A DNA stretch of 64,000 nt from Magnetococcales bacterium. Its GTDB lineage: Bacteria; Pseudomonadota; Magnetococcia; Magnetococcales; JADFYX01. Below are positions 50,067 through 64,000 of this stretch, in pieces; the stretch's first letter is position 1, and every line of letters starts with the position of its first letter. The position numbers were made by a program, and so were the translations under genes. The notes beneath the pieces are model-generated. The model did not search any database and had not been told where the DNA came from. It worked only from the letters and a program-made list of their open reading frames with translations. The DNA lies in the NCBI GenBank assembly GCA_002753565.1, contig PEAM01000007.1, positions 71,389-135,388 of the forward strand, in the 5' to 3' direction.

Positions 50067-50633
50067 TCAGGCGGCTAGGAACGCCTTGCACTGTCGGATA
50101 CACTCAGCACAAGCCTCAGCGCAGTTTTTGCACTGCCAATGATGACCCGCATGTTTGCGGCACTCTTGTTCACACTCTTCACACACAACAAGACAGTATT
50201 CGACATACTTTTTCAGATGCTTGGTGTTCATGCTGGCCAACTGGCCCAAGGTGTTGCAGGATGGAATCATCTCAGAGGCTGTACGCAGACACTCTCTTAG
50301 AGAGGTATCCCCCTGGCTGATGAGGGTAATACAGTGATTAACGCAGATATTGGCCGCAGTCAGACAGTTTTGGGCTGACTGCATGAGTTGAACGTTGGGG
50401 GGCATGTTGGCAGGCATGTTGGACGGCATGTTTTGGGGCATGTTGGCGGGCATCTGGTTCATGCCTCCCCCTTGGTGCATGGTGTGGTTGCCATGATTGT
50501 GGCTATTGGCATGGGCTGAGCCGGAAAGAAGTGCCGAAGCCAATACACCTGCTCCCACTGTTCCTGTTCCGGTTAATACCTGGCGCCTGCTGATCTCTTC
50601 ACGCTTGTTTTGGTTTTTGGTTGTGGTCGACAT
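50067..50633 (-). CDS. Tat-exported four-helix copper-binding (Csp-like) protein
   Basis: 188 residues. A twin-arginine signal (EEISRRQVLTGTGTVGAG, hydrophobic stretch, cleavage near SAHA-NS) is followed by a His/Met-rich linker with five NMPx units. A Cys-rich four-helix-bundle domain (about 80-188) has many CxxxC pairs, for example CEECEQECRKHAGHHWQC and CAECIRQC. This is the copper storage protein (Csp1-like) pattern, in which thiols line the bundle and bind many Cu(I) ions; Tat export would place it in the periplasm. AAAGGGG lies five bases before the ATG. The CopD-like protein at 42463 is not adjacent. Confidence 0.85.
   Translation of the reverse strand: MSTTTKNQNKREEISRRQVLTGTGTVGAGVLASALLSGSAHANSHNHGNHTMHQGGGMNQMPANMPQNMPSNMPANMPPNVQLMQSAQNCLTAANICVNHCITLISQGDTSLRECLRTASEMIPSCNTLGQLASMNTKHLKKYVEYCLVVCEECEQECRKHAGHHWQCKNCAEACAECIRQCKAFLAA
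50401..50454 (-). repeat. 12-bp in-frame tandem repeat encoding NMPx
   Basis: GGCATGTT occurs at 50401, 50413, 50425 and 50437, then a diverged GGCATC at 50449, a strict 12-base period. It encodes the methionine-rich NMPA/Q/S/A/P linker of the copper-storage-like protein. Four-codon periodicity could vary in copy number between strains by slippage. Confidence 0.7.
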
Positions 50634-56510: not shown

Positions 56511-59099
56511 CTATTGATTGCTGGCTACCGGCCCCATCCAGCTTTTGATATCATCGGATGTCTGCTTGGGGCTGCTCCAGGAGACATTGGTGATGAAAGC
56601 TGCTTTATTTTCATGGTCTCGATAGTATTTTTGAGCATTTTTGGCCCGTTTACTATCCTGATAGAGTCCAATCCAGATACGTTTGAACTGGCGCCCTTTG
56701 CTGTCTTCCGCCTCCCAAACCACCGGGGAGTACCCCTTCTTGGAGAGCTTTGCAACCAAGTCATTCGCCGCCTCTTCCTCATAGATAGCCGCAACTTGGA
56801 CCGCAAAACGCCAAGGCTCCAGTGCAGTCAGATCTTTTTGTAGCAGCAGATCTTCAATCTGTCGCCTTTCCGCTGCCCGAATCTGTTTTAACGACGCTTC
56901 ATCCAGAGGGGCCATGGACTCCACCTGGCTCTTGAACGCCACCTCGACAACCTCCGCAGGCTGTTGGCTGGCAATCACATCAGTTGTAGAGGCCCTATCC
57001 TGCTCTGGCTCGTCAGGAGCCGTTTCAACAAGAGGGGCAGAGGAAGAGAGGGGATCTGGCAATACATCGGCCGGAGGGGCCTTCTTTTCTATCTGGGGTG
57101 TTTGATCTGTTGGAATGACCGGCTGCTGTTCAATCACCTTGAACACCAACTTTTGAGCCTTGTCGGCAGACTTGATCGGCTGTTTCTGCTCTGCCAGTTT
57201 CTGGACTGCCAGTCTCTTTAGCTTGAGGTTCTCGGCATCTTTAGACGCCACCTCTTTGATTCTCTGCAGCCGTTTTTCCTTCTGTTTGGCAAGCAGATCT
57301 TGAACACCGGCATCAAACTGTGCCTGTTTTTTGGCCAGATCATCTTGAATGCGCTTTTCAACCTTCTTGGGTGGATCGGATGGCATCGACTGGCTGACGG
57401 TTCTCTCTTCAGGCCATGGCGCCCCCACCGGCTCAGGCAATTTGCCCGGTGTCTGGACAACAAACGGGGAGATAACCACCTTCCCAACGGTTTCAGCATG
57501 GGGCATCTTCTTCTCTTCGGCAGCGAGAGATTGCGGCCCATCCGATGACTTGACATCCGCAAGAATGGCAAGGGTGCGCACCTCGTTGAGCCAATGAGAA
57601 CGGCTGTCTTGGATCATTCTTGTCAATTCCATGACAGGTAAAGTCTGAATGTGATGCTCGGGAAAAGCAGTAAATCCGATGGAGGCCTTCAACCTGCCAA
57701 TGGCATTTTGCAGCCGGGCCGCATCGTCATAGCGACGCACCCGATTAAGAAGTTCATCGGCAGAGCGTCGAATCGTTGTCAGGTGGTCCAGCAGTTTGGG
57801 GCCATCGGTTAAGCTTATCTGCTCTTCTTGTTCCGGAAACCGGTGGCCGTTTTCAAAAGCCTGCTTGGCCGCAGCATACTCCCGATAGGCTATGTTGGTT
57901 TGTCCCAAAATGGTTTGCGCCAGCATCTGGCTCTTCTCCTCCTCACTCAGGGTGCTTTCACGAAACAGATCCCCAATCAGGTGAGCGGCGGCCAACTCCC
58001 ATTTTTTATTATTCAACAGGGTTTTATCTTCTATGCTATCAGAAAAATCCAGATGTATTCCAGCCAAGCTCTTCTCAAAGCTTTCTCTGACCATTGGATG
58101 TTTCAGACTGCTTTTTCCCACCGTTTCACCCTGCAACTCCGGCCTGAGAAGGGTAGCCAACTGTTCCATCTGCTCCAAAGAGAGCGGCAGCTCTGGGTTT
58201 AACCGTTCATCATCTGCGGTATCCAACAGCTTCAAGGGTTGGGAAGGGTCGTGATGAATCAGATGAGCCAACTCGTTCTGGGCCAGCTGTAACTCTGCTC
58301 GTAACTGCTCCAACTGCTGAACAATCTCCAACATACCCAGTTGATAGTTCAACCGTTCGATAGGAAAACCATTCGCCTTCTCTTCCGCCAAACGGGCGGT
58401 ATGGATAGACTCGGTGGCGATATCCAAAATCAACTCAGCCTCTTGAACACCCTCCTGGGCCGTCACCGCCTTCCAGTATCGGGTGCGGGTCTCTTTGATC
58501 AAGGCCTCAATATTTTTTCTCTGCAGATATGCCTCTCTTCCCTCGGTGTTGGCACGATGGTAGGCCTGAAAATAGTTCAACCCATAGTCCATCATCTCCC
58601 AGGTGGAAGCCATCCGAACCGCCGTCAATCGATAGCGCTCTGTTTGCAGACCGCTCTCTACCTCGTCACCGGACTCCAATGAGGGGAGAGACTTATCCTT
58701 ATGACCCTCTGCAAAGGGGTTCAACTGAGAAGCGATGGTTCGATATTCGGACTTTACCTCCATCTGTGCCATCTGTTGCTTCATCTGCTCGGTACGGCGG
58801 GACAGATTAAACTTAATCGCTCTGGCCATCGCCTCTTCCAGTGAGAGAGGCGTTGTCAAAACAGCGATCTCTTGGGGTTGCTTGTCAGAAAATTGTGTCG
58901 TCTGAAGGGTCTGATCACCTTGGGAGAGCGTCGAAGGGTTAACCGCACACCCCCCCAAAGCCAGCGCCGCCACAACCGCCGATGCCATCAACGAAGAGGG
59001 TTTGGATCGAGAGGGAATAACGGAGCTATTTTTACTTTTTTTCTCAGTAAGATGGCAGGATTTTGGTTGGCTGTTTCTCTGTTTAAGGGACATGTCCAA
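56511..59099 (-). CDS. TolC-like outer-membrane lipoprotein with C-terminal SPOR domain
   Basis: 862 residues. A long basic n-region is followed by MASAVVAALALGGC, a lipobox with Cys51. Residues about 75-500 resemble the outer membrane efflux (TolC-like) fold: SLEEAMARAIKFNLSRR, and paired long helices such as ERLNYQLGMLEIVQQLEQLRAELQLAQNELAHL in the first half and KKWELAAAHLIGDLFRE in the second. A Pro-rich and then coiled-coil Lys/Gln/Glu-rich linker covers about 550-720. A SPOR domain covers about 775-850 (FAVQVAAIYEEEAANDLVAKL, then FKRIWIGLYQDSKRA). SPOR binds denuded septal peptidoglycan. No membrane-fusion or pump genes are nearby. TolC plus SPOR in one chain is unusual. Confidence 0.75.
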   Translation of the reverse strand: MDMSLKQRNSQPKSCHLTEKKSKNSSVIPSRSKPSSLMASAVVAALALGGCAVNPSTLSQGDQTLQTTQFSDKQPQEIAVLTTPLSLEEAMARAIKFNLSRRTEQMKQQMAQMEVKSEYRTIASQLNPFAEGHKDKSLPSLESGDEVESGLQTERYRLTAVRMASTWEMMDYGLNYFQAYHRANTEGREAYLQRKNIEALIKETRTRYWKAVTAQEGVQEAELILDIATESIHTARLAEEKANGFPIERLNYQLGMLEIVQQLEQLRAELQLAQNELAHLIHHDPSQPLKLLDTADDERLNPELPLSLEQMEQLATLLRPELQGETVGKSSLKHPMVRESFEKSLAGIHLDFSDSIEDKTLLNNKKWELAAAHLIGDLFRESTLSEEEKSQMLAQTILGQTNIAYREYAAAKQAFENGHRFPEQEEQISLTDGPKLLDHLTTIRRSADELLNRVRRYDDAARLQNAIGRLKASIGFTAFPEHHIQTLPVMELTRMIQDSRSHWLNEVRTLAILADVKSSDGPQSLAAEEKKMPHAETVGKVVISPFVVQTPGKLPEPVGAPWPEERTVSQSMPSDPPKKVEKRIQDDLAKKQAQFDAGVQDLLAKQKEKRLQRIKEVASKDAENLKLKRLAVQKLAEQKQPIKSADKAQKLVFKVIEQQPVIPTDQTPQIEKKAPPADVLPDPLSSSAPLVETAPDEPEQDRASTTDVIASQQPAEVVEVAFKSQVESMAPLDEASLKQIRAAERRQIEDLLLQKDLTALEPWRFAVQVAAIYEEEAANDLVAKLSKKGYSPVVWEAEDSKGRQFKRIWIGLYQDSKRAKNAQKYYRDHENKAAFITNVSWSSPKQTSDDIKSWMGPVASNQ

Positions 59100-59238: not shown

Positions 59239-59258
59239 GAGCAGGCGCTCTCCCATAA

Positions 59259-59283
59259 AAAAAAGGTCCCAAGGACCTTTTTT
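59259..59283 (-). terminator. intrinsic terminator after the DHH phosphoesterase gene
   Basis: AAAAAAGGTCC (59259-59269) pairs with GGACCTTTTTT (59273-59283) across a three-base loop, with a T-run in the minus-strand direction. It lies about 40 bases after the stop of the DHH gene. Confidence 0.85.
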
Positions 59284-60290: not shown

Positions 60291-62147
60291 TTACTCTTTA
60301 AGATTCTCTTTCAAAGCCGCTTTTTCTGCCAATATTTCCCGCTGTCTTCTCGCTATATGGGTAGTAATGAGCAACTTGAACTGCTTGGGCATGGGATCAA
60401 TATGGGTCGCAATCTTCAACTTATTGTCCAATGGCCCCTGAACAAAGACAACCCGTCCAAAACAGTTGACCGGCTGAAACCTCTCTCCTCCCGTGCTGAG
60501 AAAAATTCTCATCTCCAACAGGTCACCCTTTTTAACACCTAATCGACGTGTCCGAAAGGCCAAACCCGTGGCACTCAAATTGACGGTAAAAAGATCTTTA
60601 CCATCTGGCGAGGTGGCTGCTGGAATATCCAATTGGGTTAAATCCACCTCATCGACCAGATCTTTGAAGAGACGAAATTTTTTCGATAGATTGGGATTGA
60701 TCCTCTCCAACTCCTCTATTATTTTAGCCGATTGAGGATGAAGATTGACCAGATTCTCCTTGGCCTTCTCCAGCTTTTTGGCCTCGGTAATGGGGTTGGA
60801 TAGATCACGAATTCGCTGGTTTTCCATTTGAGCCTTCAGTTGCAACATCAACTGAGCCACCCGACGCTCCGCCTGACCCAGCCCTTGACGGGTAGTCAGT
60901 GACTCGACAATACCCAGAAAAAGGGCGGTCATGCCCTGATAATACTCCTCTTCATTTTCCGTCGCCGCCCGAAGAAACAGATGAGAAAGCTCTTCTTGAA
61001 TCCAGATGGCATATTTTCTCGATTTAGACCGTTTTTTACTCAACAGAACAAAATGGGGTTGAAACTGCTTTAGAAGATATTGTTGGTCCTGAATCCGCTT
61101 GCGTAAACCAAACTCCTTGTTGGTCTTAAAAAAGGGCAGACACTCCTTTTCAAAGGTCTCATCATTCACCACACTCCAAACAAAGGGAATTCGATCGTTT
61201 ACCCGATAATCTTTTCGATCATCACTCACCCTCGGGGCTGGCTCGCTCGCCTTCACCTCAGCAGAAACAATCTCCAACCCCTTTTGTATAATCTCATCTA
61301 TCTTGGAGGAGCTACCCAGCGGCTGTTTCGGGGCAACAGGTTGGCGGTTGGCTGGTCTTGGCCGGTTGTCAGATTTTGATGTGGGCATTGCCTTGGGGAT
61401 ATCCTTAACCACGCGTGTTGAAACAGGTCTGGTTATTTTGGGCAGCAGCTGCCCCTTTATCTTTTTTTCTGATGGGGTTGAGGCAGAGCTCTTGACAGGA
61501 ACAGAAGGGGCCGGCTTGAGAGTGGTCATGGTCGCCTTGACCTGGGATGGAGAGGCGACTTGCTTAACGGGTCGCACCGGCCTGCTCCTTCTGGCTTGCT
61601 CAGCCGGACTCTTTCTTTTCTTGATGAGAGCCGGACTGCTCGCTGTCTCAAATTGGCAGATGACCCGCGTTAAATGGGTAGCTGGGTTCTCTTCCACCAC
61701 CTCCAACACCCTGCCGTAACAGTGAACAGGAAATTGGGCCATGGAGGAGGATGAAAACTGCAACTCCAACAGATCATCCTGCTCAATAGCCGGCTTCTCC
61801 ATCCAGATGGTCAGCCCAGTACCATCGGTACTGAAACTGACCGCAGAGTTGAGAGACTCCGTCGGCATGATGGCATCAAGAATTTTGTTCAGTTTTTGGT
61901 TCTGGACCTCCAAAACCGCCATTCTATCCTGAGACCGCCCTCTCGCCACCAATCCAGACCGCCCCATCCGCCCTTCCAGGCCCAACAGCGCATCCATCTC
62001 CCGCTCCAACCCCAGCCGCATGGTCGGCAGGAAGGCCCCCAGGCGGTGACATTTGGCAATGCGAGAAATTTGGATCGGTGTGACAACCCGCCACCACAAG
62101 GAGACAGACTGGCTTTTCTCACCAGAGGATAATTGTTTGTTTGCCAT
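60291..62147 (-). CDS. large PilZ-domain protein with insertion-split PilZ
   Basis: 618 residues. N-terminal about 70-170 is one PilZ-like barrel (LNSAVSFSTDGTGLTIWME, then HCYGRVLEVVEE). A disordered Lys/Pro/Ser-rich linker covers about 175-300. RKDYRVNDRIPFVW (RxxxR motif) is near 322. After about 215 helical residues comes NLSATGLAFRTRRLGVKKGD, with the NxSxxG motif, near 540, and a final barrel strand set. The two c-di-GMP-binding motifs are normally about 30 residues apart; here a long helical insertion separates them. It precedes the DHH gene and follows the smaller PilZ gene. Confidence 0.72.
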   Translation of the reverse strand: MANKQLSSGEKSQSVSLWWRVVTPIQISRIAKCHRLGAFLPTMRLGLEREMDALLGLEGRMGRSGLVARGRSQDRMAVLEVQNQKLNKILDAIMPTESLNSAVSFSTDGTGLTIWMEKPAIEQDDLLELQFSSSSMAQFPVHCYGRVLEVVEENPATHLTRVICQFETASSPALIKKRKSPAEQARRSRPVRPVKQVASPSQVKATMTTLKPAPSVPVKSSASTPSEKKIKGQLLPKITRPVSTRVVKDIPKAMPTSKSDNRPRPANRQPVAPKQPLGSSSKIDEIIQKGLEIVSAEVKASEPAPRVSDDRKDYRVNDRIPFVWSVVNDETFEKECLPFFKTNKEFGLRKRIQDQQYLLKQFQPHFVLLSKKRSKSRKYAIWIQEELSHLFLRAATENEEEYYQGMTALFLGIVESLTTRQGLGQAERRVAQLMLQLKAQMENQRIRDLSNPITEAKKLEKAKENLVNLHPQSAKIIEELERINPNLSKKFRLFKDLVDEVDLTQLDIPAATSPDGKDLFTVNLSATGLAFRTRRLGVKKGDLLEMRIFLSTGGERFQPVNCFGRVVFVQGPLDNKLKIATHIDPMPKQFKLLITTHIARRQREILAEKAALKENLKE

Positions 62148-62174
62148 AGAGCCAGGTCAGTCGAATGTTGATTT

Positions 62175-62771
62175 CTAACGCCGTCTTCGGGAGCGAATTT
62201 CATCCGTTTGCCGTCTGAAGATATGCTGAATCAGTGCTTCTCGATCAACATCAAGAATAGGATCGAATTGGCAGGCCACCTTGGAGAAGCCATCCTCTTG
62301 CGGTGGAAAAACTTTCATAATACGAACATAGCAGAGAATGGTTGCCATTGTTTCCAAAGAGAAGGCAAGACGCAACTCCAGCACCTCCCCCGCTTCCAGA
62401 TCACAATTCTCCTCTTTGAAGGCAATGCCACCCCCACTCAAATTAACCCAGGTAGGGGCCAGAGGCCGATCCTGCTCCCCAGGGTGAAACAGCCTGAGAA
62501 GTAAGTTGAGTTTGATATCCATCCGCCCTAAAATCCGGGCAAGGGTGGGATCAGATCCCTCTAGTTTTTTAAGCTTTTCGGCAACATCCAAAGAAGACAA
62601 AATCTGTTCAACATCATTTTCCCGAGAAGGAAAGGCCCGAAACTTCTCATAGTGGGCCATGATATCAGCCATCTCCCGAGGGTCAACTCGCCGCCAAGCC
62701 AAGGGGAGCGTATCATCTACCCGAGCAAATTCCCGTTGCTGATTGGTAAGAGTGGATTTTTCTTGTGCCAT
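62175..62771 (-). CDS. small PilZ-domain protein with insertion-split PilZ
   Basis: 198 residues. REFARVDDTLPLAWRRV near 13-30 has the RxxxR motif and VNLSGGGIAF near 107-116 the NxSxxG motif, separated by about 80 residues of predicted helix. The remaining strands (EVLELRLAFSLE, VRIMKVFPP, KVACQFD) complete the barrel. The same layout as its 618-residue neighbour shows the pair is related by duplication or shared descent. It lies 96 bases downstream of motB on the same strand, which suggests a link between c-di-GMP and the flagellar motor. Confidence 0.75.
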   Translation of the reverse strand: MAQEKSTLTNQQREFARVDDTLPLAWRRVDPREMADIMAHYEKFRAFPSRENDVEQILSSLDVAEKLKKLEGSDPTLARILGRMDIKLNLLLRLFHPGEQDRPLAPTWVNLSGGGIAFKEENCDLEAGEVLELRLAFSLETMATILCYVRIMKVFPPQEDGFSKVACQFDPILDVDREALIQHIFRRQTDEIRSRRRR

Positions 62772-62867
62772 AATGAATGTCTTCTCTCATGATCAGGCTC
62801 TTTCCCGGTCACACCTCTCCCCCTGTACCCTTCAACACCCCATAAAACAGAGAGCTGTTCCAGGTGA

Positions 62868-63629
62868 CTATTGAGCCTCTTCCTTGGGAGCTTGGATGAA
62901 ATCGGTACTCTCTAGAATCTGATTTTTTTCAATGGGCGGCGTCTCACGAGAGATAAGAATCTCAATCCGTCTATTTTTTGCCCTGCCCTCCTCGGTCTCG
63001 TTAGACTCAACCGGAGAGTACTCCGCCATCCCCCTGGCCTGCAACCTTGCAGGGTCCACACCACCCTCAGTCGCCATGAAGGTGACAATGGACGATGCCA
63101 TCGCCGCAGAGAGAGACCAGTTGTTGGGATAGGGTCCGTTGGGATCAGGAGGCTGGTTGTCAGTGTGGCCAGAGATAAAAACCATATTGGGAACATCAGC
63201 CAATAAAGTGGCAATCTGTTGGAGTTTTGGCTTAATGGCCTCACGAACCGCCAAAGAACGATCAAAAATAAGATCATTGGTCAAGCGGACCATAAAGCCT
63301 TTTTCCAGTTCAATCACCTCCGCCTCACCATTATCGGTCTGGTTGACCAAAATCACATCCAACTGCTCTTTAAGGTGAACCAGCACAATCTGTTGTTGAA
63401 AATCCGTTGCCATCATGGTCTCACCAGTCGGCATCGGATTAACCTGTTGCAGGGTTTGAATACCAAAGGCATCCTTCAAAGAGCCAGAAGCCTCTTCAAA
63501 TTTGACGATATCCAACTGGGCAAACGACAACAACAACACAAAGAAGGTGAGCAGAAGAGCCATCATGTCACCAAAGGTAACCATCCAGCCCGGCGCGCCC
63601 TTTTTACAAGGAGGACATTTTTTAGCCAT
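62868..63629 (-). CDS. motB: flagellar stator protein MotB (PomB-like)
   Basis: 253 residues. A short N-terminus with KKCPPCKKGAP leads to one TM helix, WMVTFGDMMALLLTFFVLLL, with the ion-conducting Asp21. A plug/linker region follows, and a C-terminal OmpA/MotB peptidoglycan-binding domain with FISGHTDNQPP, NWSLSAAMASSIV and RAKNRRIEI. The FFVLLLSFAQ pattern is closer to PomB/LafU types than to E. coli MotB, so the coupling ion (H+ or Na+) is not settled. MotA is encoded 74 bases upstream. Confidence 0.92.
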   Translation of the reverse strand: MAKKCPPCKKGAPGWMVTFGDMMALLLTFFVLLLSFAQLDIVKFEEASGSLKDAFGIQTLQQVNPMPTGETMMATDFQQQIVLVHLKEQLDVILVNQTDNGEAEVIELEKGFMVRLTNDLIFDRSLAVREAIKPKLQQIATLLADVPNMVFISGHTDNQPPDPNGPYPNNWSLSAAMASSIVTFMATEGGVDPARLQARGMAEYSPVESNETEEGRAKNRRIEILISRETPPIEKNQILESTDFIQAPKEEAQ

Positions 63630-63703
63630 TTTTCTCTATCAACCCTCTTCTATGGGAAAAAGGTACCAGGTAATCGGTGCAAAAGAGACTATAAAACAAG
63701 GGA

Positions 63704-64000
63704 CTATTCCATATCTCTCTGAGAAGGAGGCAACGCCGCTTTCAAGGCCTCTTGGAGCATCCGAGGGTTAACACCTTTTTGAATACCAATCATACCGTCA
63801 ATAATAATCTGACGAACCATCTGCTCCTCTTTACTGTATGCCCCCAACTTGACCGCAATCGGAATGGCAATCACGTTGGCAACAATCGAACCGTAAAGAG
63901 TGGTTAACAGAGCCACAGCCATCGCAGGACCAATGGATGAAGGGTCTTCCATACTAGCCAACATCTGCACCAGACCAATCAAGGTTCCAATCATACCAAA
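63704..64000 (-). CDS. motA: flagellar stator protein MotA (PomA-like), N-terminus outside window
   Basis: Only the C-terminal about 98 residues are inside the window; the frame continues past the right edge. GTLIGLVQML and PAMAVALLTTLYGSIVANVIAIPIAVKL are the conserved third and fourth TM helices of MotA/PomA. The tail carries the short cytoplasmic end (RQIIIDGMIGIQKGVNPRML). It forms the 5:2 stator with MotB encoded just downstream. Confidence 0.92.
   Translation of the reverse strand, partial: FGMIGTLIGLVQMLASMEDPSSIGPAMAVALLTTLYGSIVANVIAIPIAVKLGAYSKEEQMVRQIIIDGMIGIQKGVNPRMLQEALKAALPPSQRDME

Follow-up and report, generated by a model that had tools for sequence, protein, structure and literature searches.

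The window, by which we mean the whole 64,000-nucleotide stretch of Magnetococcales DNA analysed here, carries on its reverse strand a single uninterrupted open reading frame of 862 codons (56511-59099, minus strand). Many of the nearest named matches come from Magnetococcales metagenome bins, in keeping with a genome of this order. The mechanical start of this frame is a TTG at 59099, and residues are numbered here from that codon (862 aa). The ATG two codons later, at 59093, is the likelier start because a ribosome-binding-site-like motif, AAGGTG, lies just upstream of it; the coding sequence would then occupy 56511..59093 (minus strand) and specify 860 aa. From N to C terminus the frame encodes a signal peptide with a lipobox, a region of about 450 residues homologous to outer membrane factors (OMFs), a long charged linker and a SPOR domain. 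Upstream lie a DHH-like gene, two PilZ-domain genes, motB and motA, and the PilZ(618)-PilZ(198)-MotB-MotA block (60291..63994, minus strand) is a conserved neighbourhood by which the locus can be recognised in genomes of the same genus. Between the DHH-like gene and the OMF+SPOR gene is a perfect, terminator-like hairpin, AAAAAAGGTCC-CAA-GGACCTTTTTT (59257..59283, no strand assigned), read from the sequence, and the OMF+SPOR gene (56511..59093) is probably transcribed on its own. A scan for consensus promoters and terminators did no better on this DNA than on shuffles, and the hairpin is absent from its list. On the downstream side the gene converges on znuB across a gap of 24 bases. A functional link to the adjoining znuABC genes was set aside, as they encode a metal importer, are convergent and have no features in common with the OMF+SPOR gene. 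No ABC-exporter membrane domain, HlyD_3 or OEP match occurs within the window, in agreement with the preliminary description, which had noted an absence of pump genes nearby.

Direct scans of the whole protein against Pfam, NCBIfam and PADLOC, together with a search of PDB sequences, return the SPOR domain only: the N-terminal half has no NCBIfam or PDB match by these direct scans, and Pfam OEP finds nothing in the protein at E<=1. Matches to the protein were found in 55 of the 100 relative genomes searched, some of them covering the SPOR part only, and residues 37-510 align across both repeats with OEP-positive relatives. OEP is matched by 30 of the 31 aligned proteins, the window protein being the sole failure among the 31, and a profile built from 53 non-redundant family members recovers OprN (E 4e-8) along with MtrE and SilC. 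Because so many of the aligned proteins match OEP, the homology of the N-terminal region (residues 51-500; 57600..58949, minus strand) to OMFs is real, though too divergent for the Pfam model, and the OMF-like domain that had been proposed at 56511-59099 stands. The window protein also keeps nine invariant residues of the family, among them W167, W209 and W367, and the OMF-derived domain is thus under some constraint.

The signal peptide and lipobox (58947..59093, minus strand) end in ALGG-C, that is, an LGG-C lipobox with the predicted lipid-accepting cysteine at residue 51. The residue at +2 after Cys51 is alanine, which is compatible with sorting to the outer membrane. The lipid anchor of the preliminary description is thus present, with one correction. 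Since a cysteine occupies the lipobox column in all 31 aligned relatives, lipidation appears to be the family norm, as in OprM and CusC, rather than a peculiarity of this gene, and we dropped the anchor as a novelty for that reason. The linker, also as first described, covers residues 521-755 approximately (56835..57539, minus strand); it is charged, contains prolines and reads as a coiled-coil/proline segment.

The SPOR domain lies in the same chain, as had been claimed, at residues 764-834 (56598..56810, minus strand), and matches Pfam PF05036 with E 1e-8 and 35.8 bits against a curated cut-off of 21. The SPOR region alone has no match among PDB sequences. In RlpA, DamX and FtsN, the SPOR glutamine and the alanine that follows it touch denuded glycan (PMC6895207). 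By alignment, the window protein keeps both as Q768 and A771, and K806/R807 provide basic residues by position. The domain would thus be expected to bind denuded glycan and to place the protein at the septum.

The locus itself suggests where this SPOR domain came from. The PilZ-PilZ-motB block is present in same-genus genomes, and in the two whose contig extends far enough past it (G003 and G004) the block is followed by a SPOR protein of 260 and 317 aa, respectively, that has no OMF part. The window SPOR domain shares 65% and 59% identity with these stand-alone proteins, compared with 44-45% with the SPOR domains of its closest OMF relative (L052, in genome G003), and in the SPOR tree, poorly resolved because the alignments are short, no rows stand closer to it than these two. 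The alignment to the G003 stand-alone protein also takes in linker residues 681-760. The resemblance of the SPOR tail to the stand-alone protein of the same motAB-PilZ locus suggests, as the simplest account, that the window gene arose when the local SPOR gene was joined to one for an OMF-derived lipoprotein. A merger of two genes by faulty assembly or gene calling, conceivable in a draft genome of 92 contigs, is largely refuted and very improbable: the frame is open throughout, the linker itself matches the stand-alone SPOR protein, and the same architecture exists in an independent genome.

That second instance is L052, whose OMF part is followed by three SPOR domains and which lies at a locus other than motAB-PilZ. 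L052 opens an operon; behind it come an ABC exporter gene, two further genes, one for a canonical OMF (OEP 7e-34) and one for an HlyD protein. As the operon holds a canonical OMF of its own, its exporter has no need of L052 as a duct, and the placement of L052 at the head of such an operon suggests an accessory role.

The arrangement at the motAB-PilZ locus could also be read as a recent fusion by rearrangement, in which the SPOR part alone keeps an old task at this locus and the OMF part, a passenger in decay, provides no more than a signal peptide, a lipid anchor and a spacer. The OMF-free SPOR proteins at the same place in G003 and G004, and their closeness to the window SPOR domain in identity and in the tree, would all be explained in this way. 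At the same time, the OMF part is an intact frame of 470 residues that retains the invariant residues of its family, the short SPOR alignments resolve the tree poorly, and in G003 the OMF+SPOR order of L052 stands at a different locus, so that the pairing is older than its occurrence beside motAB-PilZ. We therefore regard a decaying passenger as unlikely.

One departure from a working OMF lies in the tunnel. The distance between the invariant S4 tryptophan and a glutamine of helix H7 that is nearly invariant is exactly 45 residues in all 51 other non-redundant homologues; it is 36 in the sister L052 and 33 in the window protein (W367 to Q400, S4 and the top of H7; 57900..58001, minus strand). 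Compared with this fixed spacing, the window protein has lost 12 residues at the top of H7, a helix that in OMFs has to span the tunnel. The region that forms the S1-S2 barrel hairpin in relatives (58590..58754, minus strand) has changed as well: its LPxL...AGY..R motif is largely lost, with 4 of 14 conserved positions remaining. A sequencing error was set aside as the cause of the S1-S2 loss, an independent genome having a similar deletion. Over the whole domain, 8 of 23 conserved barrel positions are kept as against 47 of 77 in the helical part (Fisher p 0.03), a weak difference that carries no weight in our argument. The window protein and L052 are sisters (support 100, stem 1.18), with end branches of 1.29 and 1.30 against a median of 0.42, and are thus a fast-evolving pair on long branches.

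AlphaFold monomer models of the window domain and of a canonical relative, made on the same alignment of 53 sequences, point in the same direction. The window model (pLDDT 82.9, pTM 0.84) contains no beta strand of 3 or more residues, against the four strands that each protomer of an OMF gives to the 12-stranded trimeric barrel, and its H7 measures 43 residues. The canonical control has three of the four strands (75-81, 115-123 and 303-308), an H3 of 72 residues and an H7 of 65. AlphaFold thus missed strand S4 in the control too, and for that reason the lack of strands in the window model would by itself be weak evidence from an imperfect test; moreover, the S2, S3 and S4 stretches of the window protein can still be read as possible amphipathic strands, with alternating polar and apolar residues. 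For these two reasons we describe the barrel as probably lost rather than lost. A fold search with the control model reached TolC, OprM and OprN (E 1.6e-11, TM 0.5-0.62); with the window model the best E was 2e-4 and TM 0.25-0.35, and the CusC entries 4k34 and 4k7k took ranks 2, 3, 5 and 6. These entries are CusC C1S and deletion mutants, without the lipidated cysteine, in which the barrel is disordered (PMC4486845), and their high rank is suggestive only. The expectation that the N-terminal half would model as an OMF barrel and tunnel therefore failed: no strands were predicted, whereas the canonical relative on the same alignment has strands and matches TolC and OprM.

Overall, we favour a reading in which the window protein is an OMF-derived tether, or scaffold, between outer membrane and glycan that no longer functions as a transmembrane duct, and we give this reading about even odds. 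The preliminary description had left open whether the protein is a septum-targeted secretion channel or a tether; the strand-free model, set beside a control that has strands, and the H7 deletion at an otherwise fixed spacing disfavour the first and favour the second. The predicted lipobox and the SPOR domain with Q768 and A771 also speak for a tether. A lipidated OMF ancestor of the TolC/OprM superfamily would have become an outer-membrane lipoprotein that no longer forms a duct. Held in the outer membrane by its N-terminal lipid, this lipoprotein would extend what remains of the helical domain into the periplasm, and at division sites or young poles the linker would let the SPOR domain reach strands of denuded glycan. 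The outcome would be a tether from outer membrane to glycan, or a scaffold that keeps a separate export machine at division sites or young poles. The loss of channel function, the binding to glycan, the localisation and any partner are what we infer from these features.

The most serious rival is that the protein still works as an OMF, a very divergent, lipidated orphan duct which, like TolC, would serve pumps encoded elsewhere and which SPOR would place at the septum. The family is one of secretion OMFs, whose relatives adjoin HlyD, GAF-HlyD and M50-HlyD genes and genes for giant DUF4347 proteins; the invariant residues of the family are kept; and the window genome holds several ABC exporters and HlyD proteins, as well as OMFs that match OEP strongly and bear a SPOR tail. 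Against these points stand an H7 shorter by 12 residues where spacing is otherwise fixed, the strand-free AlphaFold model, the loss of conserved barrel residues and the separate OMF inside the sister's operon. A working duct consequently seems improbable to us, though somewhat less so than a decaying passenger.

Several known systems help to place the protein. With the lipidated OMFs OprM, OprN, CusC, MtrE and SilC it shares the N-terminal lipidated cysteine, the two-repeat architecture of the helical tunnel and profile homology; it differs from them in the absence of predicted strands, a shortened H7, and an added linker and SPOR domain. The CusC C1S and delta-C1 mutants (PDB 4k34, 4k7k; PMC4486845), which are among its best fold matches, likewise have the helical part of an OMF without an ordered barrel; they are laboratory changes to a normal channel, whereas the window protein changed in nature and retains its cysteine. 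FtsN, DamX, DedD and RlpA, SPOR proteins of cell division, likewise carry a single C-terminal SPOR domain with the glycan-contact glutamine, and RlpA is an outer-membrane lipoprotein, as the window protein is predicted to be; unlike the window protein, they lack any OMF-derived domain. YbjP (DUF3828), the lipoprotein partner of E. coli TolC, is also an OMF-accessory lipoprotein, a separate globular protein unrelated in sequence to the window protein, and no avid binding of peptidoglycan was found for it (PMC13082787, PMC13095208). In several of the window protein's relatives, the OMF itself bears an NTF2-like (Cds6_C) tail, an arrangement that may be reminiscent of YbjP bound to TolC.

The survey of OMF and SPOR fusions showed the architecture to recur in Magnetococcales. 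Within the window OMF family, 15 of the 31 Magnetococcales-centred members carry SPOR, three carry NTF2-like Cds6_C and two AMIN, and the tail is thus exchangeable, with AMIN or Cds6_C in place of SPOR. AMIN tails were seen at L074 and L076, and NTF2-like tails at L080, L091, L154 and L123. Among eight long OMF tails, seven of them from outside Magnetococcales, none contains SPOR. In the window genome, OEP and SPOR share a frame in 4 of 10 OMF genes, the window gene included. The other three, which lie outside the window, have OMF, linker and SPOR in one chain as the window protein does, and differ from it in their strong OEP matches, adjacent pump genes and membership of other OMF subfamilies. 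One, CusC-like (OEP 3e-56, SPOR 2.6e-14), shares its operon with genes for a CusB-like adaptor and an RND pump of the AcrB/CusA type (L070:7783-14053, G000:C21:27782-34052); two adjoin ABC exporters and HlyD genes (L087:7681-9912 and L088:6829-8964, G000:C81 and C3; OEP 1e-52 and 9e-42), with weak SPOR tails just over the cut-off (2e-4 and 1.5e-4). Given those OEP matches and adjacent pump genes, these three may be better candidates for a SPOR-targeted duct than the window gene. Counted elsewhere by matching places and frame lengths, the combination occurs in 1 of about 10 OMF genes in G014, 2 of about 13 in G016, 0 of about 5 in G021, and 0 of about 25 in three other genomes of the phylum.

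Perhaps this wider pattern, across several pump types in one order, is of more interest than the single gene. We consider it possible, as a rather speculative extension, that Magnetococcales fix whole trans-envelope pumps to the wall through the SPOR tails of their ducts, and that in one branch the duct has lost its barrel and turned into a scaffold bound to glycan, which places an exporter, or a different polar machine such as the flagellar motor of the adjoining genes, at the septum or new pole. If the tether reading is true, an exit-duct fold without its pore has been retained as an envelope tether, of which we found no earlier description in the open-access literature, where we found no paper on fusions of OMF/TolC with SPOR or peptidoglycan-binding domains and no relevant paper on DUF4347 with TolC. 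If the wider pattern is true, SPOR, AMIN and NTF2-like tails on OMFs are a recurrent way in which one order may fix or place pumps and adhesin exporters relative to the wall, and where and how tripartite pumps cross the peptidoglycan becomes testable with simple fusions.

Other loci met in the survey deserve mention. SPOR- or long-tailed OMF relatives at L053, L055, L056, L058, L059, L060, L061, L065 and L081 are divergent from genes for giant proteins, of which the one scanned with Pfam, at L053, contains DUF4347 and several share an LEKRLMFDAAG-like start; such loci probably serve the export of giant surface proteins. At L068:240-6372, L071, L074, L076, L077 and L080, OMF genes lie by small HlyD, GAF-like/HlyD and M50-peptidase-HlyD proteins, and an ABC ATPase is absent from these blocks. 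At L084:8384-14278 (G000:C25), the gene directly after an OMF-ABC-HlyD exporter operon is a separate one for PEGA+SPOR, an arrangement that looks as though SPOR were provided in trans. In family f13 (L198:8519-12012 and L199), the place that the SPOR gene takes in the window's genus, after motA-motB-PilZ-PilZ, is occupied by two other genes, one ABC exporter-like and one HlyD-like. Finally, the window itself encodes, at 50067-50633 (minus strand), a cysteine-rich protein of 188 aa with a Tat signal, a predicted four-helix structure and a likeness to copper-storage proteins, to which no Pfam family matches.
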